Positions 11,213 through 28,168 of a stretch of DNA of 52,572 bases are shown in pieces (position 1 is the first letter of the stretch; each line of letters opens with the position of its first letter). Source of the stretch: Gracilibacteraceae bacterium (GTDB taxonomy: Bacteria > Bacillota > Desulfitobacteriia > Desulfitobacteriales > Syntrophobotulaceae); the NCBI GenBank assembly GCA_031266805.1, contig JAISAH010000070.1, forward strand, positions 1 to 52,572, read 5' to 3'. A model generated the notes under the pieces. That model worked only from the letters and a program-made list of their open reading frames with translations, made no database searches and was not told the DNA's origin. A program made the position numbers and the translations under genes.

Positions 11213-12941
11213 AATCGCCCCCTTTCCGCTGCGAATGATAAACTTCCCGGTAAAGCTCGCTGTCGCGCATGAGTTCGGCGTGGCCGCCGACCGCCTGTAC
11301 GCGGCCCCCGTCCAGCACGACGATCTTGTCGGCGTCCTGCACGGAAGCGACGCGCTGGGCGATGATCAGTTTGGTCATGGCCGGCAGCTCATCGCGGAGC
11401 GCCCGGCGCAAAGCGGCGTCCGTCCGCGTGTCCACGGCGCTGGTCGAATCGTCCAGGATCAGGATCTTCGGTTTTTTCAGCAGGGCGCGGGCGATGCACA
11501 GCCGCTGTTTCTGCCCGCCGGAAATATTGGTCCCGCCCTGCTCGATCACCGAGTCATAGCCGGCGGGCAGGGCGCGGATAAAAGCGTCGGCCTGGGCCAG
11601 ACGACAGGCGCGGACCATTTCCTCCTCGCCGGCGTCTTCATTGCCCCAGCGCAGATTATCTTTGACCGTACCGGAAAAAAGCTCGTTTTTCTGCAGCACC
11701 ACCGCGACCTCGTCGCGCAAGACCCGCAGATCGTACTCGCGCACGTCGCGGCCGCCCACTTCCACCGCGCCGCCCGTCACGTCATATAAGCGGGAAATAA
11801 GCTGGATCATGCTGGTCTTGCCGCTGCCGGTGCCGCCGAGTATGCCGACGGTCTCCCCCGGAGCCACGGACAGGTCGATCCCGTCCAGACACAGCTTGCC
11901 GCCCGCGCCGCCGTAACTGAAACTGGCGCCGCGAAAAACCAGAGAGCCATCCGGGACGACTGTCGCCGCCTCCGGTTCGCTGGTCAGGTCAGACTCCGCC
12001 GCCAGCACCTCCGCGATTCTTTCGGCGGAAGCGCGGGAGATGACGATCATGACAAAAACCATCGACAGCATCATCAGGCTGAACAGAATCTGCATGGCGT
12101 AGGTAAACATGCTCATAAGCTGGCCGGTGGTCATGGCGCCGCCCACGATCAGCCGCGCCCCGATCCAGGCGATCAGCAGCATGCAGAGGTACATGCAGAA
12201 TTGCATCAACGGCATGGCCAGGGCCATCCTTTTCCCGGCCTTGGACATATCGGCGAAAATAGACCCGGAGACGCGGCCAAATTTTTCCTTCTCATAATCT
12301 TCGCGCACGAAGGATTTGACCACCCGGATGCCGCGCACGTTTTCCCGCACGATCTTGTTCAGGCGGTCGTAAGTGGTGAAAACCCGCATAAATATAGGGT
12401 GGACATGCCGCAGGATCAAGTAGACGGCCAGCGCCAGCACCGGCACCGCCGCCAGAAAAACCAGCGAAAGGGTGGCCTGGACGCGAAAAGCCATGGCAAA
12501 AGCCAGCGCCAGCATCAAAGGGCTGCGCACCGCCATGCGCAGCAGCATCTGAAAGGCCATCTGCACATTCGTCACGTCGGAGGTCAGGCGCGTGACCAGG
12601 CTTTCTGTGGTAAATTTATCCAGTTGACGGAAGGAAAAAGTCTGGATATTATAAAACATTGTCCGCCGAAGGTTGCGGGCAAACCCGGCGGAGGCGGAAG
12701 CGGCAAAAGAACCGCTCAGCACCCCGCAGACCAGCGCCAGCGCCGCGCAGACAGTCAGAATCCCGCCCATTTTCCAGATATAATCGGTCTGTCCGCCGTC
12801 TATCCCGATGTCGATCAGACCCGCCATCAAAAAAGGGATGACGACCTCCATGACGACCTCGCCGCCCATGAACAGCGGCGAAAGCCAAGCGTCCCGCTTA
12901 TATTGCCCAATACAGCGGAGCAGACGTTTTATCAATCCCAT
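11193..12941 (-). CDS. ABC exporter half-transporter with degenerate ATPase site (A subunit of pair)
   Basis: 582 residues: six-helix exporter membrane domain and ATPase domain. Walker A GGTGSGKTS near 368, signature ISGGQKQRL, Walker B ILILDDSTSAVD near 492. The catalytic Glu is replaced by Asp, and the switch His is Gln (LIIAQRVASV). Those two changes mark the degenerate site of asymmetric heterodimeric exporters, completing a pair with the downstream subunit. Start ATG 12941. A 55-bp internal piece of this gene (12701-12755) is repeated beyond the BREX island at 27032-27086. Confidence 0.9.
   Translation of the reverse strand: MGLIKRLLRCIGQYKRDAWLSPLFMGGEVVMEVVIPFLMAGLIDIGIDGGQTDYIWKMGGILTVCAALALVCGVLSGSFAASASAGFARNLRRTMFYNIQTFSFRQLDKFTTESLVTRLTSDVTNVQMAFQMLLRMAVRSPLMLALAFAMAFRVQATLSLVFLAAVPVLALAVYLILRHVHPIFMRVFTTYDRLNKIVRENVRGIRVVKSFVREDYEKEKFGRVSGSIFADMSKAGKRMALAMPLMQFCMYLCMLLIAWIGARLIVGGAMTTGQLMSMFTYAMQILFSLMMLSMVFVMIVISRASAERIAEVLAAESDLTSEPEAATVVPDGSLVFRGASFSYGGAGGKLCLDGIDLSVAPGETVGILGGTGSGKTSMIQLISRLYDVTGGAVEVGGRDVREYDLRVLRDEVAVVLQKNELFSGTVKDNLRWGNEDAGEEEMVRACRLAQADAFIRALPAGYDSVIEQGGTNISGGQKQRLCIARALLKKPKILILDDSTSAVDTRTDAALRRALRDELPAMTKLIIAQRVASVQDADKIVVLDGGRVQAVGGHAELMRDSELYREVYHSQRKGGDFDEEEL
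12701..12755. repeat. Left copy of 55-bp imperfect direct repeat (inside ABC exporter gene)
   Basis: Matches 27032-27086 in the same orientation at about 50 of 55 positions by hand alignment. This copy is part of an intact gene; the other is an isolated fragment beyond the BREX island. The 14.3 kb between them includes the entire island. Confidence 0.8.
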
Positions 12942-13153: not shown

Positions 13154-13182
13154 TTGACAAAAAAAATGCCGCCATGTATAAT
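13154..13182 (+). promoter_or_regulatory. Consensus sigma-70 promoter of the BREX operon
   Basis: TTGACA at 13154-13159 and TATAAT at 13177-13182 with exactly 17 bp between: both hexamers are perfect. It points into the defence operon, about 235 bp ahead of its first plausible start codon (13418). The gene-free stretch 12942-13417 otherwise holds the exporter promoter, a short GCTGGC/GCCAGC hairpin at 13081-13095 and the relic described separately. No second promoter this strong was seen inside the operon. Confidence 0.75.
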
Positions 13183-13195
13183 CGAGATGCAATAG

Positions 13196-13354
13196 CCATT
13201 TGACCTCGCCGCGAAATGCAACTTCGGTTTAACAAATCTTATCGTAATTGAATCTACACATACACAACAGCGGGCCATTGACCCTGAAAACATAATTGAT
13301 TGGCTGCTTACGCAACTAAATGCCAAAGACGTTTTATACTTGCGGATACATTGA
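13196..13354 (+). pseudogene. Relic of the N-terminus of a paralogue of the 594-aa BREX-associated protein
   Basis: An open stretch without a good start codon, ending in TGA at 13352-13354. Its segment IIDWLLTQLNAKDVLYL lines up without gaps with VVTWLVTQPNANGALYL near the N-terminus of the 594-aa protein encoded at 14941; both are preceded by a Pro two residues before the aligned block. The likeness stops at the TGA. I infer a broken duplicate left in the operon leader. A second frame (13320-13478) encodes a 52-residue charged peptide with no ribosome site, possibly further debris. Confidence 0.5.
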
Positions 13355-13417
13355 AAGCACAACCGCCAAGGTTGGTGAATTCATAGATGAGGCCAGAAGG
13401 CGTGAGGAGGATGAGCG

Positions 13418-13645
13418 ATGGGAGAAATTGACCTTGTTGGCGCCAATATTGCCATGTCTACGCTTGAATTTATATTAGATACTACTCGGTGGGATAGCTT
13501 TGATCCGGAAGTGTTGAGCATTATCTCACAGCCGCAATCCTGGGGCGAAGTAAAACTGCTTGATCCAGATGGAAAAAGAAATCCGCAGCTTCGTACGATC
13601 CCAAACGACAAAGGCGGTTACCATGTAAAGGGGTGTGAAATATGA
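13418..13645 (+). CDS. 75-residue leader ORF of the BREX operon, possibly a truncated gene
   Basis: Starts at ATG 13418 behind a good ribosome site (GAGGAGGATG) and ends in TGA overlapping the next gene's ATG (ATGA, 13642-13645), so it is probably translated. It has no membrane helix or known catalytic motif. The segment near the end, RTIPNDKGGYHV, resembles the entry to a GIY-YIG-like nuclease domain as I remember it, but the protein stops right there. It may be the surviving N-terminus of a longer protein, or simply a short coupling ORF for the DGQHR gene. Confidence 0.5.
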   Translation: MGEIDLVGANIAMSTLEFILDTTRWDSFDPEVLSIISQPQSWGEVKLLDPDGKRNPQLRTIPNDKGGYHVKGCEI

Positions 13646-14895
13646 AAATACCGGCCATACGCGCTAAAGTCGGAATATGGGTTTACTACGTTTCAACACT
13701 GACTTATGCGCAGGTTAAAGAACATGTTAAAATGGTAGACAAGGAACTCCATAAATCGACGGTTCTCAGCGAAATGCTTCAGCGGAGCATAACAGATAAC
13801 TATAAGCAAATTGCCGCCTATATCACGCAACAGGAGGAGCGGTTTTTCAATTCGCTGGTTCTGGCTGTATATGACGGCGATCCTCAATGGCATGAGATCC
13901 GCTTAGATTATGGCGACGACGAAGAATACTACGATATCGGGCTGCTGGAGCTAACGGGCGAAGAAAAAATCTTTCCTGTGGACGGGCAGCACCGCGTTGC
14001 GGGCATTAAAAAAGTTCTCAGCGAATCCGACCAGTTTAACGAGGAACGTATCCCGGTGATTTTTATCGGCCATAGAAACGACGACGACGGCATGAAACGC
14101 GCGAGAAGACTGTTCAGCACTTTGAACCGCTACGCAAAACCGGTTTCCCAAAGGGATATCATCGCCCTTGACGAAGACGACTCCGTAGCCATCGCTTCGC
14201 GCGAGTTGATCGAGAGTCATCCGTTATTTGAAAACGAGCGGATATTGGATTCTAGGAGCAAAGCTATTCCCGAAAACAATAAAAAAGCTTTTACAACGAT
14301 TATCACTTTTTATGAGTGCAATTATGAGTTGATGCATCTTTTCCTGGAATCCAAAGCAGCAAAGGATTCTGATGGAAAGATAATGCGCGTGTCCTCATCT
14401 AAGGTAAGAGAGCATATCCGATTCAGGCCGGATCAGCTGGAACTTGACGAATTTATCGACCTGTGCGTTGATTTTTGGAATGCCTTTTCCTCCGAAATTT
14501 CCTGTGTTCGCGACTACTTGGCTGCGACTCCCGCTGCCGAAAGCTTCCGTAACAAGGTTGACGGAGGCTTATTGCCGTTTCGGCCCGCCGCCTTGATTCC
14601 GCTTGTCAGGGCGGCTATCCATATACACAAAAAAACCGGAGATTCATTTATCAAGGTGCTTCGCAAAATAAACGCGCTGCCCATGGAAATATCTGACGAT
14701 ATTTGGGCCGGAGTCCTTTGGGATAAAAATAACAAGAAAATGATCATGAACCACCCAGAGGTTGTTGAACTTCGTCTTGTTCACCTATACGATCCTGCAT
14801 TATTGTCAGAAAAAGAAAAACAGAATTTGGTGGATAAATATGCTTCCGCAACTCAAACGCGTAAAGAAGAGGCTAAAAGCGCGTTGGGTATCTGA
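13642..14895 (+). CDS. DGQHR-domain protein, DndB-like
   Basis: 417 residues. The signature DGQHR is at about residues 114-118 (FPVDGQHRVAGI), and the downstream FSTLNRYAKPVSQRDIIALDEDD segment is typical of this domain. DGQHR proteins include DndB, which regulates or tunes DNA phosphorothioation in Dnd systems; others occur in mobile defence loci. Here it precedes a BrxP-type sulfurtransferase gene in one operon, which supports a role tied to sulfur modification of DNA, either as regulator or as a modification-linked enzyme. It is somewhat longer than classical DndB. Its start overlaps the 75-aa ORF by 4 bp. Confidence 0.8.
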   Translation: MKIPAIRAKVGIWVYYVSTLTYAQVKEHVKMVDKELHKSTVLSEMLQRSITDNYKQIAAYITQQEERFFNSLVLAVYDGDPQWHEIRLDYGDDEEYYDIGLLELTGEEKIFPVDGQHRVAGIKKVLSESDQFNEERIPVIFIGHRNDDDGMKRARRLFSTLNRYAKPVSQRDIIALDEDDSVAIASRELIESHPLFENERILDSRSKAIPENNKKAFTTIITFYECNYELMHLFLESKAAKDSDGKIMRVSSSKVREHIRFRPDQLELDEFIDLCVDFWNAFSSEISCVRDYLAATPAAESFRNKVDGGLLPFRPAALIPLVRAAIHIHKKTGDSFIKVLRKINALPMEISDDIWAGVLWDKNNKKMIMNHPEVVELRLVHLYDPALLSEKEKQNLVDKYASATQTRKEEAKSALGI

Positions 14896-14940
14896 GCAAC
14901 GAAGCATATTGCCAAAAGAAAACAAAGCTGGGGCACAGAG

Positions 14941-16725
14941 ATGTCAACAAATGATAACTGCATGACAAGCCAATCGGTCACTCCTGTTAACCCGAATGAT
15001 GTTGTGACATGGTTGGTAACTCAGCCAAACGCAAATGGCGCCTTGTATTTAAAAAATGTGGTACGGACATATATGAGCGCTTTACGCAACGCACCAGATA
15101 AGCTGACACTTTCTCTGGAAGGCAGAGATGTGTTTTCCTGTCATACGGTCGATGAATTGGATTCGCTTTGGAATACATTTAAGTCCGCTCCAAATTATGT
15201 CGAGGTGAACCGTACTCCTTGGCATGGACAACTTTCTGCGGGATTAGCTGTCTACAGGCGTTACTTGGAACATATCGAACTGGTTGGTAATGCAGCATTT
15301 TCGGGTACTCATTCTATTCAGAATATTGAAAACAATCTCAGAATAAGTAAAGCAGTAATGGCAGCAGTAATGGAGGTGCTGGAAAACTGCTTTCCTAACG
15401 GAATAAGGCCAAACTCAGTCATTGATTCACACAAATTTAAAAATTACTATGCGGACGCAACAGGCAGAGATATTTTTGATGATGTTCCAGACATTCCGTT
15501 TGTTTTGGAAGCAGTGGGTATTAAGCACGGTGAAAAGATATACGCCGTTTCTGCAACTGGCAAACAAGAATTATCTGCATTATTTAACCGACTGTTATCC
15601 GAAAACAATCGCCTGTTTTACTATGATGAATTATACGATTCTCACGCCGATTTTTTGCAAAGAATACACATATTCTCCGCCGGATTGCTTAGAACAGTCC
15701 TTTCAAGCATATGCACAACTTTATTTTATTACAATAACTACTGTCAGACGGACAGAAACGTAACTGTGGAATCCGAAATTCTGCGTTGTTTCGAATCGGC
15801 GATATGCCTGTCTTACGACCAACTGAAGGATAAGCTTCCCTATGTGCCTGCTACAAGCATTCGTCAGGCGCTGGTTCAGAACAGTGATTTTATATGGGTG
15901 TACACAGGCGTGTATACCTATATTCGGAGAATTGATTTCGACAAAGCGGAGTGCGATAAAATTTGCTCACATATAGCCAATGCTGTATCATCTCATGGAT
16001 TTGCATCCCTTGCAACCGTAAAGGTTCGAGCAAGCGCCGAATTAAATCCAGAACTCTCTGAGACTGCAATCAGAAATGGGTTATATCAGACTTTTCTCTC
16101 CAATAATTACAAAAAACGCGGCAATATCATAGCAAAAAAGGGCTCAATTCTTAATTCTGCAACTATATTTGAGGATTTTTGCCGTTCTCATGATCGCTTG
16201 TCTGTGAGTGAGCTGCTTGACTACGAGAAGGAAATCAACGGCGATGTTCACAGTCAATCGCTATTCGTCGCTTATGACAATATGGTTCGCATCAACCGTG
16301 ATACATTTGTGGCGGACAGTGAAATCTACTTCGATGTGGATTCCGCAGACGATGCCCTTGCGCGGTTTGTCTATGGGGATGTGGTTCCTCTTCGTTCGGT
16401 AACAAGCTTTACGTCGTTTCCGTTTATTGACACTTATCCCTGGAACTGGTTTATGCTCGAAAGTTACTGCCGCCGATTCAGTAAACAGTTCCGTTTTCAA
16501 TGCCTATCGGTCAGCAGCCGAAATGTCGGAGCAATTTATAAAAAGGCCGCCGGATTTGCCGATTACGCAGGAGTACTTGCTGTTGCTGTTGCAGCAGAAC
16601 CTATTAAACTAAATCAAAAAGAAGTCGGCGATTTTCTTTTCGAGAGCGGTTATGTCGCTCGGCGAACAAATTTTATCGCGGACGTTGTGGCACAAGCGCG
16701 CCCATTAAGAGAAAGGATGGTTTAG
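14941..16725 (+). CDS. Unrecognised 594-residue protein of the BREX operon
   Basis: I do not recognise the family. The first 110 residues (a WLVTQ..YLKNVVRTYMSALR helix and HGQLSAGLAVYRRYLEHIE) resemble the small helical N-terminal domain found on various restriction-type proteins, with an integrase-core-like pattern. Two later stretches (about 280-345 and 345-450) read like winged-helix units: a run of helix, S-x-R-Q-A-L, then F-I-W-V-Y-T-G-V-Y-T-Y-I. No nuclease, ATPase or methylase motif is evident. It sits 45 bp after the DGQHR gene and 4 bp before brxP. A DNA-reading or specificity role is a guess. Confidence 0.75.
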   Translation: MSTNDNCMTSQSVTPVNPNDVVTWLVTQPNANGALYLKNVVRTYMSALRNAPDKLTLSLEGRDVFSCHTVDELDSLWNTFKSAPNYVEVNRTPWHGQLSAGLAVYRRYLEHIELVGNAAFSGTHSIQNIENNLRISKAVMAAVMEVLENCFPNGIRPNSVIDSHKFKNYYADATGRDIFDDVPDIPFVLEAVGIKHGEKIYAVSATGKQELSALFNRLLSENNRLFYYDELYDSHADFLQRIHIFSAGLLRTVLSSICTTLFYYNNYCQTDRNVTVESEILRCFESAICLSYDQLKDKLPYVPATSIRQALVQNSDFIWVYTGVYTYIRRIDFDKAECDKICSHIANAVSSHGFASLATVKVRASAELNPELSETAIRNGLYQTFLSNNYKKRGNIIAKKGSILNSATIFEDFCRSHDRLSVSELLDYEKEINGDVHSQSLFVAYDNMVRINRDTFVADSEIYFDVDSADDALARFVYGDVVPLRSVTSFTSFPFIDTYPWNWFMLESYCRRFSKQFRFQCLSVSSRNVGAIYKKAAGFADYAGVLAVAVAAEPIKLNQKEVGDFLFESGYVARRTNFIADVVAQARPLRERMV

Positions 16726-16729
16726 GGCA

Positions 16730-19018
16730 ATGTACGCATATACCCATGATGCCCAAACGGGCGGGCTATTACTAAATGACAGTACGCCGCTATTCTCAAA
16801 AGAACCTCGCCCTGTATATTGCCGTGAACTTGACATTCTCGGTTTTGATGCACATTTTAATTACGCCAAACAAGACAAAATTCCTTATATGTGGGCGGAG
16901 GCAAACTGCTATTGGTATCGTGGTCAGATAGTCGCAAAAACAAAAGGCGGCGCCCTGTACACCGCGCCTGAACTTGAGTTTGTAAACGATACTGACGGAA
17001 ATAGAGTTTTGCCGGATGATGAAACTCTACAGCCTGTCGATGTCGCCGTTATGGTAGAAAAAAACCGTGAACTGCTCGAAGTCATAGAGCAAGTCACGGT
17101 AAAGAAAATTTTTGATGTTTACAAACGTTACCGCAAGAAGCTGGACTGCTTCCATGTAGCTTTTTCGGGCGGCAAGGATAGCGTCGTCCTGCTTGACCTC
17201 GTTAAGAAAGCCTTGCCAAAAAGCGGTTTTATCGTCGTGTTCGGCGATACGGGTATGGAGTTCCCCGACACTTACGAAGTTATAGATAAGGTTGAATTGC
17301 AATGCCATATTGAGGAAATAGAATTTTATCGCGCCGTCTCGCATCTAAAGCCGGAGGAAAGTTGGAGGCTTTTTGGTCCACCATCGCGTGTCCTGCGATG
17401 GTGTTGCTCCGTGCATAAGTCTGCTCCGCAAACGCTTAAGTTGCGCGAAGTATTAGGTAAAAATCACTATGTTGGAATGGATTATGTCGGCGTTCGCGCT
17501 TATGAAAGTGCAACCCGTGCAGATTACGATTACGAGAACTACGGGAAAAAGCAAAAGGGACAATATTCTCATAATTCAATCTTGGAATGGTCTTCTGCAG
17601 AGATTTGGATGTACATTTACGCGCACAACCTTGCGATTAATAAAGCATATATAAAAGGAAATTCCCGTGCTGGTTGCTTGTTCTGCCCTATGGGTGGCGG
17701 CAAAGGTGATGCTATGCAACGACTATGTTATCAGGCGGAAATTGATGGCTTTATTGATATTATCAAGAGTACCAATGCCCGCGACTTGGGACACGCGAAT
17801 GCTCTGGAATCATACATTACCAATGGTGGATGGAACGCGAGGAAAAATGGACGTGACCTAAACATTAGCACACTCCATTATCAAGACGAGATTAAAGATG
17901 GAAAACTCCGAATTACTGTAACAAATCCTACGACTGATTGGCAGGAGTGGATAAAAACGCTCAAGGAAACACCGTTTGAATATAAACTTACAAAAACAAA
18001 GAGCGGATACACCGTAGATATTGCTGAATTTCTGCTTAAAGAACAGCCAGTTTTCATGAAAAAGTTCAAGCAAGTATTCAAAAAGGCGGCGTGCTGTGTC
18101 GGTTGCAGGGTTTGCGAAACCAACTGTCGTAATGGATGTATATCGTTCAAGCAAGGTCTGAAAATCGAAGGTTGCATGCATTGCGGACAATGCCATGACA
18201 TTGACGATGGCTGTTTAGTATATCACTCACTGAGACTACCGCAGGGAGGAGGAAAGAATATGAAGAGCATTAACTCATTTGCGAATCACGCGCCTAAACT
18301 TGATTGGGTAAAAGAATTCTTCGAAAAAAAGAACAATTATTGGGCGGACAATAATCTGGGACCCAATCAGGTGCCTATGTTCAAACGCTTTCTCAGAGAA
18401 GCCGGATTGCTTGAAAATAACGAGGCAACTCTCGTTGTTGATTTAATTGATACCGTAGGGTGGGAAAGCGAAGCAACATGGGGTATCATACTCTCAAATT
18501 TTGCCTATAACACTCAGTGTGAATGGTATATCCGACACCTTGAAAAAGGAAGAACTTTTCCTAGAGAAATGGTGTCGGATATGCTTATCGCTGTCGGTGT
18601 TAGTAAAAACGATGCAACATCAATAATAAACGCCTTTAAACGCCTTTGCGAACTTCCTCTCGGCACAAAGTTAAATTTTGGCACAGTCACCGAAAAAGGC
18701 AAACAAATTAAAACACTCACGCGTAACAAATCTACGCTTGAGGACAACCGCGTGGTGCTATACTCTCTATACAAGTTTGCCGAAGCCTGCGAGGGGTATT
18801 ACCAGTTCACGCTTACCCGCCTGCTTGACCACACAATAAAATCGGTCGGCATCAGTCCGACGCAGATTTTCGGTTTCGACCGTGATGACATGGAGAGTTT
18901 CCTAAACGGGCTGTCGGCGCGATACCCTGAATTCATCAATGCCACGTTCACGCACGATCTCAATAAGATTACTCTCCGTGAAGATAAAACATCAACTGAC
19001 GTGTTAAGTCTGTTTTAA
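16730..19018 (+). CDS. brxP: BrxP-like PAPS-reductase-family sulfurtransferase with Fe-S-type cysteines
   Basis: 762 residues. The PP-loop SGGKDS is at about 146-151 within FHVAFSGGKDSVVLLDL, the adenylation motif of PAPS reductases and of DndC. Conserved cysteines follow: LRWCCSVHK (about 225) and AGCLFCPMGGGKGD (about 315), a DndC-like set. Residues about 450-495 carry a ferredoxin-like cluster (CCVGCRVCETNC, then CMHCGQC). The last 250 residues are helical and may be a DUF4007-like domain. In BREX type 4 this protein stands where other BREX types have the methylase PglX. I infer that it installs sulfur on DNA with a cysteine desulfurase encoded elsewhere. Confidence 0.8.
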   Translation: MYAYTHDAQTGGLLLNDSTPLFSKEPRPVYCRELDILGFDAHFNYAKQDKIPYMWAEANCYWYRGQIVAKTKGGALYTAPELEFVNDTDGNRVLPDDETLQPVDVAVMVEKNRELLEVIEQVTVKKIFDVYKRYRKKLDCFHVAFSGGKDSVVLLDLVKKALPKSGFIVVFGDTGMEFPDTYEVIDKVELQCHIEEIEFYRAVSHLKPEESWRLFGPPSRVLRWCCSVHKSAPQTLKLREVLGKNHYVGMDYVGVRAYESATRADYDYENYGKKQKGQYSHNSILEWSSAEIWMYIYAHNLAINKAYIKGNSRAGCLFCPMGGGKGDAMQRLCYQAEIDGFIDIIKSTNARDLGHANALESYITNGGWNARKNGRDLNISTLHYQDEIKDGKLRITVTNPTTDWQEWIKTLKETPFEYKLTKTKSGYTVDIAEFLLKEQPVFMKKFKQVFKKAACCVGCRVCETNCRNGCISFKQGLKIEGCMHCGQCHDIDDGCLVYHSLRLPQGGGKNMKSINSFANHAPKLDWVKEFFEKKNNYWADNNLGPNQVPMFKRFLREAGLLENNEATLVVDLIDTVGWESEATWGIILSNFAYNTQCEWYIRHLEKGRTFPREMVSDMLIAVGVSKNDATSIINAFKRLCELPLGTKLNFGTVTEKGKQIKTLTRNKSTLEDNRVVLYSLYKFAEACEGYYQFTLTRLLDHTIKSVGISPTQIFGFDRDDMESFLNGLSARYPEFINATFTHDLNKITLREDKTSTDVLSLF

Positions 19019-19030
19019 GGGGGAGATACC

Positions 19031-22000
19031 ATGAACAAGTATAATGAGTATTTTGATATCGACGAGGGCTATTGGCCGGAGATAAACCCCAGTTCTATCA
19101 AAGATCCGTCAAACAAATGGGAAAAGACATTCCCGCATAAAACCTTTGTTGATCTCCTTAAGGCGACCGAGCGTATGCTTGCGCGCGGTACAAACAGCGA
19201 CAAAAAAGGCATCTGGATTGAGGGCGCCTATGGCACGGGCAAATCACGGGTGGCTTGGACGTTAAAAAACCTTCTGGACTGTTCTGACGCGGCTCTCGAA
19301 AACTACTTTGCCGAATATCCGGCTTTACAGGATGAGCCTGATTTGCGAGATAAATTACTCGGTCACAAGCAGGGCAAAATCATAACGGCTTACCGATATG
19401 CTTCCGGCGGCATCGGCAGTGATCGCGCGCTTATTATGGCCGTTTATGAAAGCGTTACCAGAGCTCTGCGTGACGCGGGCATATCATACAAAGGCGAAAA
19501 CAGTCTTCGTGGAGGCGTGGCTTTATGGCTTTCCGATGATGCAAACAAGGCGTTCTTCAACACGCTTATCGCCTTGCCTGAATATAGAGGGCTGGGCAGC
19601 TTTGCCGGTAAATCCGCCGACGACATTATCAGTTTGCTGAAGAATTTGAATGCCAATACTGATGCTTTAATGGAAGATATTTTTTCTCTCGCAGAAAGCC
19701 GTGGAATCACCGCTCTCACCACCAATATGGACGAACTGATAGCATGGCTTACAGATATCATTGACCAGAATAGCCTCAAGGCTATTGTTCTTGTTTGGGA
19801 TGAATTTTCGGCTTATTTCAAGAAAAATCGTACAACACTCGACGAATTCCAAAAACTCGCTGAACTTTCAAACATCAAGCCGTTTTACCTGATGATAGTT
19901 ACCCATATGTCGGGATCAATTTTCAGCGAAACCGACCAAACTGGCAAAATCGTTCGTGATCGTTTTGTGCGCAAAGAGATTGAACTGCCCGATTCTATTG
20001 CTTTCGAATTAATCAAGCATGCCCTCAAGGTTAAAGATCATCAAAAGGATATTTGGGATACTCTTGCCGATGAGATTAACAGCCGCATTCCGTTTTCACG
20101 CGAAGCTGTTCGTCAAGCGGTGTGGAAAGACTCCAGTTTTGGTGATGATGTGCTGAAAGGCTTGCTTCCGCTCCATCCGCTTGCCGCTTTGCTTCTCAAG
20201 AATATTTCAAATGCATTTGCCTCTAACCAGCGAAGCATGTTTAACTTCATCAAAAATGCTGAGACCGAGAATCTCCAAGCATTCCAATGGTTTATTGACA
20301 CTCATAGCCCTGACAATACGGATATACTGAGCATTGACTTTCTTTGGAATTTTTTCTACGAGAAAGGCACGGACGACTATAGCTCTGGTGAAGGCAGAAG
20401 TAATCTTGATTCCATAATTCGCACTATTCTTGACACATATCTTATAAATGAAGAACGTCTAAATAGCGAGCAGAGACGTATTCTAAAAACAGTTCTGATG
20501 ATGCAGGCTATCAGCCAGAAACTCGGCGATAGTGTAGATTTGTTACTGCCTACAGAGAAAAATATCAACCATGCCTTTGAAGGCACTGATTTTGAGGAAA
20601 ACAGAGCCGTTACTATTATCAAGAACCAGTTGGTGAAAGGATATGGCATCCTTTACGCCAAGCCGATGGGCAATGGTAAGGTTCAATATGCCGCCGCCGC
20701 CGTATCCGGCGACCAAGCACAGATCGATAATATTAAAAACCGTATTGTCAGCGAAACGAAGACAGCATCTCTGGTATCAAGCGGCGACCTTTCTTCCGCT
20801 CTTTCTTTAAGCGCGGCCTTGCGTTTCCGCTATGATGTCACTCCGGTCACAATTGAGAACTTCACAGTGACCATAAATAAAATTACAAACGAACATACCA
20901 CATATAAACTTATGGCGGTTCTGTCATTTGCTCGTAATGATGAAGAACAAAATAAAATTCGTGAACTCATCAAAAACGCAATAAAAAACGACCGCTATAA
21001 AGACCTTGTTTTTATAGACGCATCTTCTGCCGTTTTAGGGGGAGAGCGCTTTGGACAATGGGTGGAGTGCGCCGCCAATGAGGAATATTGGAGAGCTAAG
21101 GACAGTAAACTTGCGGATGAAATGTCCCGTAAGGCAAAAAGCATTCTTGACGACTGGAAAACCGATGTCGCCAACGGCTCATTTACTGTGTATTCGGCGT
21201 TTATGAAATCCGGCGAGCAGTATAGCAGCGCGTCGTCTGCCCTTGGAACTCTTTCGAATATAGTTATTCGCAAATATCCGCTATCATTTGACAATGTCAA
21301 GGTCAGCGACAATTTTTTCCTCGTATCCAGTTTGCCGTCGGGTGCGAAATATGGCATTACCCAGACCTGCGGAGGCCTTTTCCAGCAAGCGTCCGTAGCG
21401 GCTATGATGCAAGGAGCATGGCAAATTCCCAGTTATTGGGAAAAGCGGCCGTCATTGCCTCTCTCAAAGCTTAAATTAAAAATAGATGAGTTGATCAACA
21501 AGACGTTTATAGGTGAGGAACGCCGCATAGCAGTCGGAGACATCTTTGATTTTTTGATAGAACAAGGCTTCATGCCCTGTAATCTCTATGCCCTTTTAAC
21601 GGGTTTCTTGCTTAAGGAATACGCAACCGACACCTATCGTTATAGCGATGGTGAAACCGGAGATAAAATGAGTGCAGATAAACTTGCCGAAATTGTTGGC
21701 GAGTACATCAAGCATAAAAACACGCCGATTGCTCGTTACAAAGAAAAATACATCGCTGTAATGAGCAAAGAACAGATTGCTTTTATCGAGTTCGCAAAAG
21801 TCGTGTTTGGCATACCTGATAATATTTCTATAGAGCAAACCGCCGCGCGTATCCGCTCAAAACTGAAAGACTTAGGGTATCCCATCTGGTGTTTCAAAGA
21901 GATAGAGACAAACGAGCTTGAAGACTTCCTTGAAAAACTTGCAGCCATAGCTAATTCAAGCAGCAGTGGTGAAAGTGTTTCAAAGATAGCTTCATCCATT

Positions 22001-23221
22001 GGCTATATGTCTTTACAAACACCCACAGCCGCAGGTAATCTCTCTATTCTTTTAACAAAAGAGAATGCGCTTAAAGCAATTAACGAATTTTTGACGATGT
22101 TTGAAAACGGCGATATTCTCAGGCTGGCAAAGGAAATTAAGGCCCCGGATCTCCTTCTTGACGTGAAACGGCAAGTCGGCTCAGGCGAGGCTTTGTGGTT
22201 GTGGGATCAGGAAACCGGCGAAGATGAACTTCACAAGTTACTTGCCGATTATAAAATTGTTGCCGCGAGTAATCAAATCAATGCTAAAACATCATCTCTT
22301 TCCACTTGTCTTGGCGAATGGCGTGAGAAGGCGAAGTCAATTAGAATTCCCTGTTCAGCCCTTATTGCAGAGGTTCCAGATCTTAAGGCGATACTTGGAT
22401 GCTTGCGTGACATCTTGACGTCAGGTGAACTGGCTTATGAAAAACGCGAGACATTTCTGACAAAACTTGAAACTAACGGCACGGCGTTTAAAGAATTTTT
22501 TTCAACAACTACATCTGTGTTCAAAAATATATACTCATCTCATCTGACTGGATTTAGTGAGAGTGAAATCAACATCTTATACTCCAAATTGCCCGTGACC
22601 TCGTTTACTTCTGACAAATCGGACTTTGAAAAACTTGTCGCGTCTGAGGCTGAAAAAATCAGAGGCGAACAAGCGAAGTATAAATTACATCAACTTTGGG
22701 AAGAAAAAACAGGTTCTATGACGCCGAGGGATTGGTCCGCCAAGAACAGAACTCCTATTCTTTCTCTTGTCCCAATCTCATTGCACGGAGATGCACGACG
22801 GGCGTTTGGCGCCATTAACAGAAATAATCCTGAAGATGGCGAAGTGAAGTTTGCGCTGGAGTTTTTGCAACGTAAAGCCTCATTCCTAAATGACCTGGGC
22901 GACAAATCGAAAATTGATGCTGTATTTATCCGTGATATCATCGGACGTTTCTTGGTGATTTTGCCTGATGCCGATGCGGTCAGGTCAAAGCTTGAAGCCG
23001 TTGTTACAACCCTCCCGTATGATTGGTATGGCGACCCGATTGTAAGGTGTGAAGTAGAGAAGTTCGCCCAAGCAAGATATAACCAAGGAGGCAATGAAAG
23101 AGTTCTCGATCGTATTGAAAAAATGGATGCCGATAAGGCGAAAGAGTATCTTAAGCGGCTTATCAAAGACAATATGAATGTCGGTATTGAAATTATCTCG
23201 GAAGGAGGAGATGAAGCGTGA
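19031..23221 (+). CDS. brxC: BrxC-like large P-loop ATPase
   Basis: 1396 residues. Walker A GAYGTGKS at 65-72; Walker B in AIVLVWDEFSAYF near 255. The N-terminus and the FYLMIVTHMSG segment fit the BrxC/PglY (DUF6079-type) ATPases of BREX systems, which are very large and needed for both modification and phage exclusion. Start ATG 19031 has a strong ribosome site (GGGGGAG), 12 bp after brxP. Its stop overlaps the GTG of pglZ (GTGA). The remaining 1000 residues are mostly helical, with no further motif I can name. Confidence 0.85.
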   Translation: MNKYNEYFDIDEGYWPEINPSSIKDPSNKWEKTFPHKTFVDLLKATERMLARGTNSDKKGIWIEGAYGTGKSRVAWTLKNLLDCSDAALENYFAEYPALQDEPDLRDKLLGHKQGKIITAYRYASGGIGSDRALIMAVYESVTRALRDAGISYKGENSLRGGVALWLSDDANKAFFNTLIALPEYRGLGSFAGKSADDIISLLKNLNANTDALMEDIFSLAESRGITALTTNMDELIAWLTDIIDQNSLKAIVLVWDEFSAYFKKNRTTLDEFQKLAELSNIKPFYLMIVTHMSGSIFSETDQTGKIVRDRFVRKEIELPDSIAFELIKHALKVKDHQKDIWDTLADEINSRIPFSREAVRQAVWKDSSFGDDVLKGLLPLHPLAALLLKNISNAFASNQRSMFNFIKNAETENLQAFQWFIDTHSPDNTDILSIDFLWNFFYEKGTDDYSSGEGRSNLDSIIRTILDTYLINEERLNSEQRRILKTVLMMQAISQKLGDSVDLLLPTEKNINHAFEGTDFEENRAVTIIKNQLVKGYGILYAKPMGNGKVQYAAAAVSGDQAQIDNIKNRIVSETKTASLVSSGDLSSALSLSAALRFRYDVTPVTIENFTVTINKITNEHTTYKLMAVLSFARNDEEQNKIRELIKNAIKNDRYKDLVFIDASSAVLGGERFGQWVECAANEEYWRAKDSKLADEMSRKAKSILDDWKTDVANGSFTVYSAFMKSGEQYSSASSALGTLSNIVIRKYPLSFDNVKVSDNFFLVSSLPSGAKYGITQTCGGLFQQASVAAMMQGAWQIPSYWEKRPSLPLSKLKLKIDELINKTFIGEERRIAVGDIFDFLIEQGFMPCNLYALLTGFLLKEYATDTYRYSDGETGDKMSADKLAEIVGEYIKHKNTPIARYKEKYIAVMSKEQIAFIEFAKVVFGIPDNISIEQTAARIRSKLKDLGYPIWCFKEIETNELEDFLEKLAAIANSSSSGESVSKIASSIGYMSLQTPTAAGNLSILLTKENALKAINEFLTMFENGDILRLAKEIKAPDLLLDVKRQVGSGEALWLWDQETGEDELHKLLADYKIVAASNQINAKTSSLSTCLGEWREKAKSIRIPCSALIAEVPDLKAILGCLRDILTSGELAYEKRETFLTKLETNGTAFKEFFSTTTSVFKNIYSSHLTGFSESEINILYSKLPVTSFTSDKSDFEKLVASEAEKIRGEQAKYKLHQLWEEKTGSMTPRDWSAKNRTPILSLVPISLHGDARRAFGAINRNNPEDGEVKFALEFLQRKASFLNDLGDKSKIDAVFIRDIIGRFLVILPDADAVRSKLEAVVTTLPYDWYGDPIVRCEVEKFAQARYNQGGNERVLDRIEKMDADKAKEYLKRLIKDNMNVGIEIISEGGDEA

Positions 23222-25356
23222 AAACGGTTACAGTGGAAAGCGCTCTCGTCAGCATTGGGAAATACTTGACGAGCGATGTCGCTACCTCATATATCGTCGT
23301 GGTAGATGATGCCATAGAATATGCCGACATTGTTTATAATCTCAGCACACTTAGGCAAATGCGTGTTAGCGATTATTGCGCAACTGAAGATGCATTTCCT
23401 GATTACGATGCTCTTTGCGTGGCACTTTCCACTGTTACTCAAAATACACTGCTTCTTGGATTCGGAGAAAGCGTTCACTTAAGCGGGAATGCGAATGTTC
23501 TTGGCCGGTTAAAAGATTTGTCCCTTGCGGCAAAGGCGGTTGTTTTGTGCCGCGGCATCAGGGAAGTGGTGAAGTCTCTTTGCGCGGACGACAACAAGTT
23601 TAATGCAGCGCGAAGAGTTTGTTTTCTAAGGGCGGGACGGACTTATGACATCATAAATTTCCCGGCGATATTAAATGTTCCCGCAGAAGCGGGGGTGAAG
23701 GCCCTTTTACAGCGGTTGGAAGGCGGGGGGGCAAGTTCTGTATTTGTAAAAACAACTTTACCCCTAATACATGTTAGAGAGGTAACTACGGCATATGGAG
23801 CGATTCAGCAAACAGAGCCTGCTTTTGCAATTCCGGCGACTTGCCTGACGGATTCGCTTTGGGAAGAATACCTTGCTGACACCAACCTTGAGGGATATGG
23901 ATTGTTTCATTGGCGTTATTTTTTGAAGATGAAATCCGAACCGCCTAAAGATGAGTATTTAAAATATGTAGTTGAGAAAGCTGATAGTTATGACTGCTAC
24001 AAAAAACTGATTTTTATGGCGTTATTGGATTTTTCACCGAGACATAAAAAGTTTTCCGCCATGTACAAGGCGCGTAAAGCACTATTAAAAAACATTAAAG
24101 ACAATGAAATTGCTGAATATGTGGCCGAGACAAAATCAAAGGACGACGATAGAGTTTATTACCTAACTGATAACACAAGTTTGGAAAGACAAGCGATTAT
24201 AGAATCGCTGGATGGTACATCCGCCATGCTCAATTCATTAGAAACCATATACCCCGCATTGGCAGAGTATCTCCATGACTATGTTTTTAACGGGGATAAG
24301 GCCGAACTTTTAACAGGCTACTTCGCTGACTATAAACGACAAAAATTAACGAACCGTCTCTCCCCTGAATTTCATCAAAGGGTTATTGATTTAGCTGCGG
24401 CCGGAAACCGTCCGTACAACACCCTTAAAACAAGGGGTGAAGTCCTCGACAGCCTTAGCAAAAAAAACACCACCTTATACTGGATTGATGCGCTTGGCTC
24501 AGAATACGCCGGGTATATTCAGAGCCGCGCAAAAACTCTTGGATTAAAAATATCTATTAATATCGTTCGCGCCAATCTTCCAACCATTACTTCGCTAAAC
24601 AAAGATTTTTATGATACATGGAATGGCCGTAAAGTAAAAAGGAATGAACTGGATGAAGTCAAGCATAAAGGCGAACAGGACTTCAACTACGAAACTACCA
24701 AATTCCCGATTCACCTTGCGTCTGAACTGGCAATAATAGATGATTTTTTAGAATGGGCAGTTTCTCAATTGACAGGCAAGAAAACTGACAAGATTTTGCT
24801 TGTATCCGACCATGGCGCAAGCAGGCTTGCTGTTATCAACGAGCAGGAATGCAAATGGGAAATGGCTTCTAAAGGACAGCATTCCGGTCGCTGTTGTCCG
24901 TGCAGCGAAGCTGATGTCAAGTCAAAATACGCAACACAGGAAAACGGATTCTGGGTACTCGCTAATTATGACCGGTTTAAAGGCGGACGTAAAGCTAGTG
25001 TAGAAGTTCACGGCGGGGCCACCCTTGAAGAAGTTGTCATTCCGTTGATTGAAATAGAACTATTTGACAATAAAATAACCGTGAGCAATACTACGCCGTC
25101 AATAACTACAAGTTTCAAAAAGAATGCGGAAATTGTGTTGTTCAGTATCAGTAATTTGAAGGCTGTTTGGGTGCGAGTAAATGGCAAACAGTACACCGCT
25201 GAAGCTGAAGGCCAGAAACATAAGATAGTCTTTGCGGACATCAAGAAAACTGGAAAGTACAGTGCTGATGTATTTGAAGGCGATAACTTGATTGGGCAAG
25301 TTGAATTTGAAGTCCAGCGCGAGAGCGGCAGAACAAACGATAAAGACTGGTTTTAA
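23218..25356 (+). CDS. pglZ: PglZ-domain protein (alkaline-phosphatase fold)
   Basis: 712 residues. The PglZ core is seen as LYWIDALGSEYAGYI (about 419), IVRANLPTITSLNKDFY, ILLVSDHGASRL (about 526) and EVHGGATLEEVVIPLIEIE near 600. These correspond to the metal-binding Asp and Asp-His sets of the alkaline phosphatase superfamily, as in PglZ of all BREX types. The N-terminal 200 residues look like a separate alpha/beta domain. GTG start at 23218 with GGAGGA upstream, coupled to brxC by GTGA. It is the hallmark gene that makes this a BREX locus rather than a Dnd locus. Confidence 0.9.
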   Translation: MKTVTVESALVSIGKYLTSDVATSYIVVVDDAIEYADIVYNLSTLRQMRVSDYCATEDAFPDYDALCVALSTVTQNTLLLGFGESVHLSGNANVLGRLKDLSLAAKAVVLCRGIREVVKSLCADDNKFNAARRVCFLRAGRTYDIINFPAILNVPAEAGVKALLQRLEGGGASSVFVKTTLPLIHVREVTTAYGAIQQTEPAFAIPATCLTDSLWEEYLADTNLEGYGLFHWRYFLKMKSEPPKDEYLKYVVEKADSYDCYKKLIFMALLDFSPRHKKFSAMYKARKALLKNIKDNEIAEYVAETKSKDDDRVYYLTDNTSLERQAIIESLDGTSAMLNSLETIYPALAEYLHDYVFNGDKAELLTGYFADYKRQKLTNRLSPEFHQRVIDLAAAGNRPYNTLKTRGEVLDSLSKKNTTLYWIDALGSEYAGYIQSRAKTLGLKISINIVRANLPTITSLNKDFYDTWNGRKVKRNELDEVKHKGEQDFNYETTKFPIHLASELAIIDDFLEWAVSQLTGKKTDKILLVSDHGASRLAVINEQECKWEMASKGQHSGRCCPCSEADVKSKYATQENGFWVLANYDRFKGGRKASVEVHGGATLEEVVIPLIEIELFDNKITVSNTTPSITTSFKKNAEIVLFSISNLKAVWVRVNGKQYTAEAEGQKHKIVFADIKKTGKYSADVFEGDNLIGQVEFEVQRESGRTNDKDWF

Positions 25357-25373
25357 TGGAGGGAGCATCCAGA

Positions 25374-26837
25374 ATGATTGATAAACTAAAAAACTGTTTT
25401 GACGAGATGGTCGTTTACAAAGATCTGAAAGCGAGCAATTTCTTCTCAGCGTTGAGTCTGCCATCATTTATGCGCGATTGGCTCCTTCGCAGATTTGAGG
25501 ATGAGAGCGGTGTATTCAGTGAGGATGAGCTTATTGAGTTTGTAAGGGAATTCATACCTCGCAAAGAAGACTGGACGGCAATTAAGAATCGTATCATCAA
25601 GGAAAATGAGCGGGTCAAATTCCTTGCTAAAATTTCAGTTGATATTGACATCCGTACTGGCGAAGTATCGTTTGCTTTGCTGGACTTTGGTTTGACTTCG
25701 AAGCAGACGATCATAGAAGATATGGTATGGGATTCGTGCAAAAAAGAACTTGTCAAGGGACGCGAGTCATGGGGAATGCTTGAACTTGCCTACCGTCCTC
25801 CTAACGACAGCGGTACGCCCAAATTACCCGGAAAAATCCGCCTTGTTAACTTCAAGAACTTTTGCCCCTACTCAATTGAACTTGATTATTATAAAGATGT
25901 CCGTAGCGAGTTTCAAATTTCCGAGTGGATCGACGTCTTACTTGGCGCCGTCGACTACAACGCCGGCGGTTATAAGAGCGAGGAAGAAAAGTTGACCATG
26001 CTTACAAGACTGCTTCCTTTCACAGAAAAACGCCTTAATCTCATTGAACTCGCGCCAAAAGGCACAGGTAAATCCTATCTGTTTGGTCGTGTTAGTCGCT
26101 TCGGTTGGCTTTCGAGCGGCGGTGTTATGAGCCGTGCGAAAATGTTCTACGATATTTCAAAGCGCACGGAAGGGCTAGTTTCTGGTAATGACTTCATAAC
26201 CCTTGATGAGGTTCAGACTATCTCTTTTACTGATGTAGACGAAATGAGGGCTGTGTTAAAGGGATATCTCGAATCGGGTGTATATACAGTAGCTAACTAC
26301 GAGGGTGTGGCCGACGCCGGTGTAATTCTTTGTGGGAATATTTCCAAAGAAACTATGGATAATGATGGCACAACAAATATGTTCGAAGAATTACCTGCCG
26401 TTTTCCATGAATCTGCCCTTATTGAGCGTTTCCACGGCTTCATTAAAGGTTGGCATATTCCGAGGATGAACGATGACCTTAAAATATCAGGTTGGGCATT
26501 GAACTCCGAATATTTCTGTGCAATACTGCATGAACTCAGGAGTGATACTATGTATAGAGCAGTTGTTGACAGATTGGTGAATGTGCCGGAAGCGGCTGAT
26601 ACCCGTGACACAGAAGCTGTCAAACGCATAGCTACAGCATATTTGAAGTTGTTATTCCCGAATGTCAGGAAAACGGCAGATATAACCGCTCGTGAGTTCA
26701 CCCGTTACTGCCTGCGACGCGCTTGTGCTATGCGCGCTACCATTAAGAATCAGTTGGGAATATTGGATTCCGAGTATAGAGGTAAAGATATCCCACGGTT
26801 TTCAGTAAATGAGGAAATTTGCAAGAATGAAAGATAG
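25374..26837 (+). CDS. brxL: BrxL-like AAA+ protein, short form without a Lon-like C-terminus
   Basis: 487 residues from ATG 25374, preferred over ATG 25356 because GGAGGGAG lies 8-11 bp upstream. Walker A is in LIELAPKGTGKSYLFG (about 226-233), followed by SSGGVMSRAKMFYD and Walker B in DFITLDEVQ (about 272-280), all BrxL hallmarks. In BREX type 1, BrxL is near 680 residues with a Lon-like C-terminal domain. Here the protein ends soon after the ATPase lid (IKNQLGILDSEYRG), so that domain seems absent. No frameshifted continuation was seen downstream. Likely role: DNA-encircling motor for exclusion. Confidence 0.85.
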   Translation: MIDKLKNCFDEMVVYKDLKASNFFSALSLPSFMRDWLLRRFEDESGVFSEDELIEFVREFIPRKEDWTAIKNRIIKENERVKFLAKISVDIDIRTGEVSFALLDFGLTSKQTIIEDMVWDSCKKELVKGRESWGMLELAYRPPNDSGTPKLPGKIRLVNFKNFCPYSIELDYYKDVRSEFQISEWIDVLLGAVDYNAGGYKSEEEKLTMLTRLLPFTEKRLNLIELAPKGTGKSYLFGRVSRFGWLSSGGVMSRAKMFYDISKRTEGLVSGNDFITLDEVQTISFTDVDEMRAVLKGYLESGVYTVANYEGVADAGVILCGNISKETMDNDGTTNMFEELPAVFHESALIERFHGFIKGWHIPRMNDDLKISGWALNSEYFCAILHELRSDTMYRAVVDRLVNVPEAADTRDTEAVKRIATAYLKLLFPNVRKTADITAREFTRYCLRRACAMRATIKNQLGILDSEYRGKDIPRFSVNEEICKNER

Positions 26838-27027
26838 CAGTTCTTGCTTTGCCTGCGGTAAAGCAAGGCTTACAAAAGACGAAGTTGGCATAAACAAAAA
26901 AATGCTAGGCACTAAGATTAAACAGTTGTATTGTCTCGACTGTTTAGTCGATTATCTGGAAGTAACAGCTGATGAGTTGCTGGCAAAGATTGAGGAGTTC
27001 AAGGAGCAAGGCTGCAAACTATTCTAA
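26827..27027 (+). CDS. 66-residue zinc-ribbon protein at the end of the BREX operon
   Basis: The start ATG 26827 lies inside the last codons of brxL (11-bp overlap). The protein has two CxxC knuckles (CFACGK near 7 and YCLDCL near 39) separated by about 30 residues, followed by a charged helix. This fits a small zinc ribbon that could bind DNA or protein. An upstream in-frame ATG at 26809 is less likely. Family not recognised; its coupling to brxL suggests it works with that motor. Confidence 0.65.
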   Translation: MKDSSSCFACGKARLTKDEVGINKKMLGTKIKQLYCLDCLVDYLEVTADELLAKIEEFKEQGCKLF

Positions 27028-27031
27028 GCGC

Positions 27032-27086
27032 CGGCAAAAGAACCGCTCAACACGCCGCAAACCTGCGCCAGCGCCGCGCAGACTGT
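27032..27086 (-). pseudogene. Fragment of an ABC exporter gene (right copy of the 55-bp direct repeat)
   Basis: On the minus strand it still encodes VCAALAQVCGVLSGSF, matching the exporter segment AALALVCGVLSGSFAAS encoded near 12.7 kb. About 50 of 55 bases match 12701-12755 in the same orientation. It has no start or continuation on either side. It starts 4 bp after the last BREX gene, so it marks a junction of the island. It may come from this genome's exporter or from a close homologue in the donor. Confidence 0.7.
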
Positions 27087-27111: not shown

Positions 27112-27663
27112 ATGGGAAACAAGATCACGCTTTATCATGGCACGATCTACGAGTTTGATAAAATCGACGTGACCAAGGGAAAAGGCCATAAGGATTTTGG
27201 GCGGGGGTTTTACACATCGCGGGATATTCATCACGCTGAACGTCTCGCCTCTCGGAACAGGAGCATTGAGGAAGAACGCCGCGCGCTGCGCGGAGTGAAA
27301 AAAAGTGTCACGTCCTGGCTTTACGCATTCGAATTCGACCTTGGCAACTTGGCGATACTTAACGTAAAAGAGTTTGCCGCAGCCGACATGGAGTGGATGC
27401 GATTCGTGGTCCAGGGCCGCGAAAGCAGGAACAACGCCCCGCAGCACGAATATGATATTGTAATAGGACCAACGGCCAACGACAACACTCGCGCGGCGAT
27501 ACAAACCGTTATACCGCTGGCCAGGGGACAGGTCCTGACGGATAAGGCCATTGAGGCGCTGATCGCGCTCATAGAACCGGGCAATCTGCCGCGGCAGTTT
27601 TTCTTCGGGACACAGCGCGCCGCCGACCTGCTCCGCTTGAGGGCGAGGAGGATGATCCGGTGA
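27112..27663 (+). CDS. DUF3990 protein, ADP-ribosyltransferase-like putative toxin
   Basis: 183 residues. The N-terminus LYHGTIYEFDKID followed by KDFGRGFYTSRDIHHAERLA is the DUF3990 pattern, thought to be an ADP-ribosyltransferase fold. Start ATG 27112 has GGAGGGG upstream. Its stop overlaps the GTG of the next small gene (GTGA, 27660-27663), and a DUF3791-like gene follows, an association seen in toxin-antitoxin-like loci. Target unknown. GC content lies between that of the BREX operon and the surrounding chromosome. Confidence 0.7.
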   Translation: MGNKITLYHGTIYEFDKIDVTKGKGHKDFGRGFYTSRDIHHAERLASRNRSIEEERRALRGVKKSVTSWLYAFEFDLGNLAILNVKEFAAADMEWMRFVVQGRESRNNAPQHEYDIVIGPTANDNTRAAIQTVIPLARGQVLTDKAIEALIALIEPGNLPRQFFFGTQRAADLLRLRARRMIR

Positions 27664-27905
27664 AAGAAATCAATGAAAATATCATCGAAATTTGCATAGG
27701 CTCCATCACGGCTCAGGTCGCCGACAGTTACGCTGAAAAACACGGCGTCTCTGTGACTGACGCCCTGCGGCTGTTCATGGCGGCGAAAACATATGAGCTG
27801 CTGGCGAATCCCAAGGCATATCTGTATCTTGAAGCGGCGCCCTATGTGGAAGATATGCTGGACGCGGAATTGTCCGGCGACTGGGAAAGCTGGATGGAGG
27901 TGTAG
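27660..27905 (+). CDS. 81-residue small protein, putative antitoxin component
   Basis: GTG start at 27660 with AGGAGG upstream, overlapping the DUF3990 gene by 4 bp. Acidic, mostly helical (QVADSYAEKHGVSVTDALRLF, then AAPYVEDML). No DNA-binding motif is evident. Position between a DUF3990 gene and a DUF3791-like gene suggests it is part of the same cassette. Family not firmly recognised. Confidence 0.6.
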   Translation: MKEINENIIEICIGSITAQVADSYAEKHGVSVTDALRLFMAAKTYELLANPKAYLYLEAAPYVEDMLDAELSGDWESWMEV

Positions 27906-27907
27906 AG

Positions 27908-28168
27908 GTGGAAACCCGGAAGTTCAATGAGGTCGCCTATTTTCAGGCGGGTATCGCGAGAAAATATATGCGGCGGCACGATCTCACGCCTCTGCAGTTC
28001 GTCGAGATGGACAAACGGTATCATATCCTGCGTCTGCTGGAAGTCGGATACGAGCCGTTTCACCTCACCGGCGACGAGGGCGTCCTTGACGAGATCGATG
28101 AAATAGTGGCGGAGCAGCAAGCGGCAATCTCCGATATGAGTGCAAGCTGTTCATCGCCAAAAGTCTGA
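27908..28168 (+). CDS. DUF3791-like small protein, putative antitoxin; 3' end runs into the GNAT gene
   Basis: 86 residues from GTG 27908, with GGAGGTG 5 bp upstream. The pattern FQAGIARKYMRRHDLTPLQF, then YHILRLLEVGYEPFHLTG and a DEIDEIVAE ending, fits DUF3791, a usual partner of DUF3990. The last dozen residues (after about ISDM) are antisense to conserved C-terminal codons of the convergent GNAT-DUF1801 gene, so they are probably read-through past the original stop. It overlaps that gene by 109 bp. Confidence 0.65.
   Translation: METRKFNEVAYFQAGIARKYMRRHDLTPLQFVEMDKRYHILRLLEVGYEPFHLTGDEGVLDEIDEIVAEQQAAISDMSASCSSPKV

Follow-up and report, generated by a model that had tools for sequence, protein, structure and literature searches.

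A complete BREX type 4 operon has probably replaced an Ssp phosphorothioate operon downstream of a retained promoter and DGQHR gene

Why does a BREX type 4 operon begin with a gene resembling dndB and with a 594-residue gene, and do these two genes belong to the defence system that they precede? BREX type 4 is the BREX type that writes phosphorothioate (PT) into DNA, using BrxP, a protein of the PAPS-reductase class (PMC12839542; PMC11931770). The window analyzed here, a stretch of 52,572 nucleotides, makes up the whole of contig G000:C106; the genome it comes from totals 3.38 Mb and is split into 152 contigs. The initial annotation had described positions 13154-27027 as a BREX type 4 operon fused with Dnd-type parts. 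Position 13154 opens a perfect TTGACA-17-TATAAT sequence and 27027 closes the stop codon of a zinc-ribbon gene; between them, the operon genes are tightly packed, all on the plus strand. The G+C content is 41-46% across 13.0-27.03 kb vs. 54-67% in the flanks. All genes claimed for this region (DGQHR, 594 residues, PAPS-reductase class, BrxC, PglZ, BrxL, zinc ribbon) were present as intact open reading frames at the positions given for them, and two features had gone unmentioned, namely a GIY-YIG-like gene in truncated form at 13418-13645 and, at 13277-13345, a fossil fragment of a P2 N-terminus; P2 is our name for the 594-residue protein. The features are as follows.

13154-13182, plus strand: sigma-70 promoter TTGACA-17-TATAAT at the operon head (12/12 match), aligning with locus L159 and kept in this Ssp locus of the same genus.
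13277-13345, plus strand: fossil of the N-terminal module of an older P2 gene (IDPENIIDWLLTQLNAKDVLYLR; tblastn E 7e-5; HMM 25.4 bits, best of 300 shuffles 8.3).
13418-13645, plus strand: GIY-YIG-like nuclease gene truncated to 75 of about 172 residues, overlapping with the start of DGQHR as ATGA (tblastn E 1e-12 against the G206 gene; DNA alignment to the intact L159 gene).
13642-14895, plus strand: DGQHR protein (ParB/Srx superfamily), 417 residues, by profiles and close relatives an accessory associated with Ssp, Dnd and BREX type 4, not DndB.
14903-14941, no strand: exchange junction in the DNA alignment, where L159 homology stops 8 bp past the DGQHR stop codon, shortly before the P2-BREX4 genes.
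14941-16725, plus strand: P2, 594 residues, a conserved BREX type 4 gene with a tandem winged-helix fold (locus survey, AlphaFold and Foldseek).
16730-19018, plus strand: BrxP, a PP-loop/PAPS-reductase class sulfurtransferase with a ferredoxin-like Cys cluster and a C-terminal DUF4007-like region (PADLOC 839 bits; invariant SGGKDS and Cys residues).
19031-23221, plus strand: BrxC AAA+ ATPase, SspC-related (PADLOC 1136 bits; Walker A GAYGTGKS).
23218-25356, plus strand: PglZ of the BREX-4 type, GTG start (NF033445, NCBIfam BREX_PglZ_4, 392 bits, cut-off 140; PADLOC 448).
25356-26837, plus strand: BrxL AAA+ protein (TIGR02688 389 bits, cut-off 329; PADLOC 746).
26827-27027, plus strand: zinc-ribbon protein, 66 residues, usual after brxL in BREX type 4 (homologue 3' of brxL in most complete loci).
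27032-27083, plus strand: right-edge scar, a 52-bp copy of a piece of the upstream ABC-transporter gene (12701-12752; 92% identity), with the G+C step at the same place.

The region 13154-27027 contains a complete BREX operon of type 4, preceded by the DGQHR and P2 genes. Searches with BREX and Dnd profiles, which the initial annotation had proposed as a check, bore out its BREX type 4 call, as BrxP, BrxC, PglZ and BrxL were all matched by PADLOC or NCBIfam models, PglZ far above and BrxL above the curated cut-offs. The BrxP model was matched over 761/762 residues, and the diagnostic motifs lie at SGGKDS146 in BrxP and GAYGTGKS65 in BrxC. The brxC, BREX-4 pglZ and brxL genes form one operon whose members overlap or sit close together. 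No methylase gene lies between 13 and 27 kb; BrxP stands in place of PglX. The idea of a fusion with Dnd-type parts did not hold, since the DndC-class protein is an ordinary BrxP, the defining gene of BREX type 4 and a protein that lacks the DndC cysteine dyad (PMC12839542). Nor is the zinc ribbon an odd addition, being a usual BREX type 4 gene; a small zinc finger often co-occurs with the BREX type 4 desulfurase (PMC12839542). An operon-borne cysteine desulfurase is an optional feature, found in 56% of BREX type 4 taxa (PMC12839542). None lies beside the window operon, and the same genome encodes two strong class-V aminotransferases elsewhere. The link between BREX type 4 and PT that the annotation had mentioned exists in the literature, where PT modification is attributed to brxPCZL (PMC11931770; PMC12839542); the core finding is therefore known and not new, and we infer that this particular operon would mark DNA with sulfur and exclude phages. 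Beyond the low-G+C region, a DUF3990 gene (ADP-ribosyltransferase-like), a short uncharacterized open reading frame and a DUF3791 gene follow at 27112-28168, possibly a toxin-antitoxin-like set.

We found no usable model of P2 in Pfam, NCBIfam or PADLOC. A direct nucleotide-pattern search with the single sequence returned no relatives, tblastn of P2 and BrxP against plasmids gave no match, and searches based on alignments or anchored on BrxP succeeded. With BrxP as the anchor and each species represented by a single genome, we obtained 80 named loci, 75 of which are testable in having at least 1 kb 5' of brxP. A P2-family gene resides directly 5' of brxP on the same strand in all 75 testable loci, a count that holds for the large clade of BrxP proteins closest to that of the window, from which the 80 loci come. 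The gap between P2 and brxP has a median of 4 bp, with a one-base overlap in nine of the 75 loci. By record title, the 80 loci belong to Bacillota, Bacteroidota, Planctomycetota, Synergistota, Spirochaetota, Desulfobacterota, Verrucomicrobiota-type lineages, Alphaproteobacteria and one archaeon, many being metagenome assemblies for which single assignments may be wrong. In a sample of 398 genomes spread evenly over the same phylum, strong P2 matches occurred only beside BrxP, and six divergent BrxP loci without P2 formed one clan (support 0.987), because of which P2 is not strictly essential to every BREX type 4 system. The 594-residue protein, previously taken for an extra gene, is thus a core gene of this BrxP clade, and its distribution supports its being a standard part of BREX type 4 defence rather than an oddity. 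It goes unnamed in the main text of PMC11931770 and PMC12839542, as far as these were searched. At two P2-less divergent BREX type 4 loci (L039 4991-6472 and L047 5028-6473, with brxP oriented forward), a sigma-70-type factor with an extra N-terminus lies directly 5' of brxP, and at L034 (5798-6514) an HNH-type gene separates a P2-like gene from brxP.

The constant part of P2 is its C-terminal portion of ~470 residues, and the N-terminus varies from nearly nothing to about 1000 residues; whole proteins of the family mostly comprise 460 to 1488 residues (median 719). Relatives or neighbours at the P2 position contain HARE-HTH or integrase-SAM-like modules, or else a sigma region-4-like helix that was spotted by eye. 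AlphaFold predicted a confident winged-helix chain (pLDDT 92) with a variable N-terminus. The best solved structures matched by Foldseek include the SelB winged helices (E 9e-4) and similar arrays, weak matches of modest significance, and a P2 profile search against PDB sequences gave chance-level matches only. P2 is acidic (pI 5.9; family median 5.8), atypical of a strong DNA binder, which counts mildly against strong DNA binding. A PADLOC Cas12a match (16.8 bits) was rejected as chance. We also rejected an assignment of P2 as DUF4007/SspB; no SspB model matched it, and the C-terminus of BrxP, where the literature places DUF4007, matches a separate C-terminal BrxP model. P2 may be a DNA-targeting subunit, for target recognition or loading, that serves BrxP, with a regulator of the operon as the main rival.

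The DGQHR protein had been called DGQHR/DndB-like. Its membership of the DGQHR family stands (TIGR03187 105.7 bits, cut-off 58.85), as does the match above cut-off to Pfam DndB (108 bits, 6e-31); the protein is not DndB itself, with 71.7 bits vs. a cut-off of 328 for the DndB equivalog TIGR03233 and its close relatives in Ssp operons. The DGQHR motif, at residues 114-118, is invariant in nine aligned sequences. The nearest relatives, from G411 of the same genus (89% amino acid identity), G206 (64%) and G447 (56%), all lie in Ssp operons with sspD, sspB (DUF4007) and sspC, each directly 3' of a gene for a protein of ~172 residues. Six relatives of this small protein share invariant G67, Y69, Y87, G89, R102 and E143, corresponding to the GIY, YIG, Arg and Glu positions, and profile matches came just below threshold (PF20815 21.5 bits vs. 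cut-off 22.4; UvrC 0.0019). The conserved motifs and these sub-threshold matches point to a GIY-YIG-like nuclease. Its AlphaFold model was poor, and Foldseek on that poor model matched no GIY-YIG structure; the GIY-YIG and DGQHR alignments, used as profiles against PDB sequences, each gave chance-level matches only.

More distant DGQHR family members likewise come after a small gene of this kind in Roseobacter (sspABCD), in Rhizobium K1/93 (sspABCD and sspFGH) and in Rhizobium NXC14 (dndBCDE), and Lacrimispora celerecrescens 152B carries the intact pair directly after a BREX type 4 operon and its desulfurase. This comparison shows an apparently portable GIY-YIG and DGQHR pair associated with three kinds of PT loci, Ssp, Dnd and BREX type 4; GIY-YIG/URI nucleases close to Dnd genes have been mentioned earlier (PMC10853773). 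At two further BREX type 4 loci, L103/L176 and L061, a more distant DGQHR gene lies beside the operon without the small GIY-YIG-like gene, in the latter divergent and directly upstream of P2. Near DGQHR in two Ssp loci (L145 1014-5476 from G206 and L161 10223-14647 from Roseobacter), we also observed a trio of a DEAD helicase, a GHKL-type ATPase and a PLD-family protein, perhaps another restriction partner of Ssp.

How the DGQHR gene came to precede a BREX type 4 operon can be read from the G411 locus (L159), which carries an intact GIY-YIG-like gene, then DGQHR and then sspDBC. The window and L159 are colinear and ~94% identical through two ABC-transporter genes and the common promoter, and the DNA identity of the DGQHR gene is 89.7% up to base 14903. 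Relative to L159, ~300 bp have been deleted from the GIY-YIG-like gene of the window, right after the first motif. At the right edge, the repeat pair 27032-27083/12701-12752 is an insertion or recombination scar. The alignment shows two sister species with, at one site and behind one promoter, two different predicted PT writers. The last exchange would have run from Ssp to BREX type 4 because the GIY-YIG gene is broken in the window. The P2 fossil recurs in L159 (15.2 bits; best of 300 shuffles 8.3), 5' of the GIY-YIG gene in both species, which suggests that an even older BREX type 4 system once occupied the site. In three further genomes of the genus (G410, G412 and G413), contigs end within about 1.2 kb of the site, as for a variable island. 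The best reading is that PT writers were exchanged at one site and that half of a PT-linked accessory module was left behind. We regard it as likely that a complete, PT-based BREX type 4 defence operon has replaced an Ssp PT operon behind the inherited promoter and DGQHR gene, the "Dnd-like" gene probably being a leftover from the earlier Ssp system.

The junction between DGQHR and BREX4 could also be an artefact of assembly, two defence islands having been joined into a chimera in a draft genome that may be metagenome-assembled. The fragmentation into 152 contigs, the draft state of the L159 genome, also in many contigs, and the contig breaks just beside the site in three genomes of the genus would fit a chimera; the low-G+C island nevertheless runs without a break between sharp edges, the right one marked by a scar repeat, the operon spacing is normal, and the same gene families are found together in the independent locus of Lacrimispora, so that we consider a chimera very improbable. 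The DGQHR and truncated GIY-YIG genes might be functionless today, inert leftovers of the Ssp island that was displaced. The destroyed nuclease partner speaks for this, as does the presence of DGQHR in only 4/45 BREX type 4 genomes, nearly all other BREX type 4 loci being without it. Yet its reading frame is intact, its dN/dS between the window and G411 is 0.135, close to the 0.09-0.10 of housekeeping neighbours (with a dS about twice as high), and an intact pair is attached to BREX type 4 in Lacrimispora. The ratio indicates past purifying constraint on the DGQHR gene, and since it spans the time before the exchange too, it is no proof that DGQHR still works. Inert leftovers are a serious possibility, although we give them clearly less than an even chance. 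A role of DGQHR as a transcriptional repressor of DndB type, now in control of the BREX type 4 operon, seems unlikely to us. DGQHR shares the DndB superfamily and is the first intact gene behind the promoter, and DndB regulates its own operon in Salmonella (PMC4507180); the score far below the DndB equivalog cut-off, the lack of the published DndB box TACGN10CGTA in the window, a DGQHR-clade member beside a separate true dndB in Rhizobium NXC14 and the pairing of every close relative with a GIY-YIG-like gene all argue against a repressor.

Similarly, P2 might be a dedicated transcription regulator of the BREX type 4 operon instead of a subunit of the DNA-marking complex. The winged-helix array would suit a regulator, as would the sigma-70 region-4-like helix in distant versions (L034 and L036), the real sigma-70-type gene at the P2 place in two P2-less loci (L039 and L047) and the frequent first position of P2 in the operon. 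However, P2 is a very large protein, is coupled to brxP within a few bases in nearly all loci, varies in its N-terminus far beyond the need of a promoter-bound regulator of one operon, and is expressed in the window from an Ssp promoter. We give a regulator a low but real chance. The most far-reaching interpretation compatible with these data, with chances that we put slightly below even, is that P2 is an overlooked core subunit of BREX type 4, fast-evolving, of winged-helix type and translationally coupled to BrxP, which would set the sulfur-marked sequence as HsdS does for methylation, and that the split GIY-YIG and DGQHR pair is a PT reader-nuclease plug-in common to Ssp, Dnd and BREX type 4.

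We envisage the following mechanism, all of its biochemistry being inferred. A housekeeping cysteine desulfurase encoded elsewhere in the genome would load sulfur, and BrxP, driven by BrxC and positioned by P2, would write PT at chosen host sequences. PglZ and BrxL, together with BrxC, would block or cut unmarked incoming DNA. The constant C-terminal core of P2, translationally coupled to BrxP, may dock on the complex, and the variable N-terminal modules may pick the DNA target. DGQHR would be the half that survives of a portable pair linked to PT, a GIY-YIG nuclease with a DGQHR NTPase. By analogy with SspE and DndI, PT-responsive DGQQR-type NTPases fused to HNH nickases (PMC11662687), it could hydrolyse NTP to read PT status. 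With the nuclease partner destroyed in the window, DGQHR would be idle here, or a regulator or sensor.

What is new in this locus is P2, an apparently unnamed standard gene of BREX type 4 within the main texts searched. In addition, the supposed DndB is re-identified as one member of a portable, PT-linked pair, and the locus adds a clear case in which one PT system took over the site of another. P2 offers a concrete candidate for how BREX type 4 chooses its marked sequences, for which we found no explanation in the literature. Roughly 84% of sspBCD loci lack SspE and SspFGH (PMC8092258), and the GIY-YIG and DGQHR pair could account for part of the restriction of unmarked DNA in such loci, for which we likewise found no published explanation. 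The locus amounts to a natural experiment in which two species of one genus carry different sulfur writers at a shared site and promoter and both retain the accessory gene.

Compared with BREX type 4 as described (PMC11931770; PMC12839542), the window operon has all core genes in the same order, a BREX-4 PglZ at the profile level and the zinc ribbon after brxL, but it lies behind a DGQHR gene of an Ssp island and has no adjoining desulfurase gene. It shares the site, promoter and DGQHR gene with the Ssp operon of the same genus, and its BrxP and BrxC are relatives of SspD and SspC, whereas its writer genes are those of BREX type 4, with sspB, sspC and sspD absent from the operon. DGQHR belongs to the DndB/ParB superfamily and BrxP to the PP-loop class together with DndC; unlike a Dnd system, the operon encodes no dnd writer proteins, neither DndD nor DndE among them, and unlike DndC, BrxP fits the BrxP model over its full length and DndC models weakly. 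In SspE and DndI, too, a DGQ(H/Q)R domain of the NTPase type is found together with a nuclease at PT loci (PMC11662687). The published proteins are DUF262-HNH fusions, in contrast to the two separate genes found here, whose nuclease is GIY-YIG-like instead of HNH and is broken in the window.
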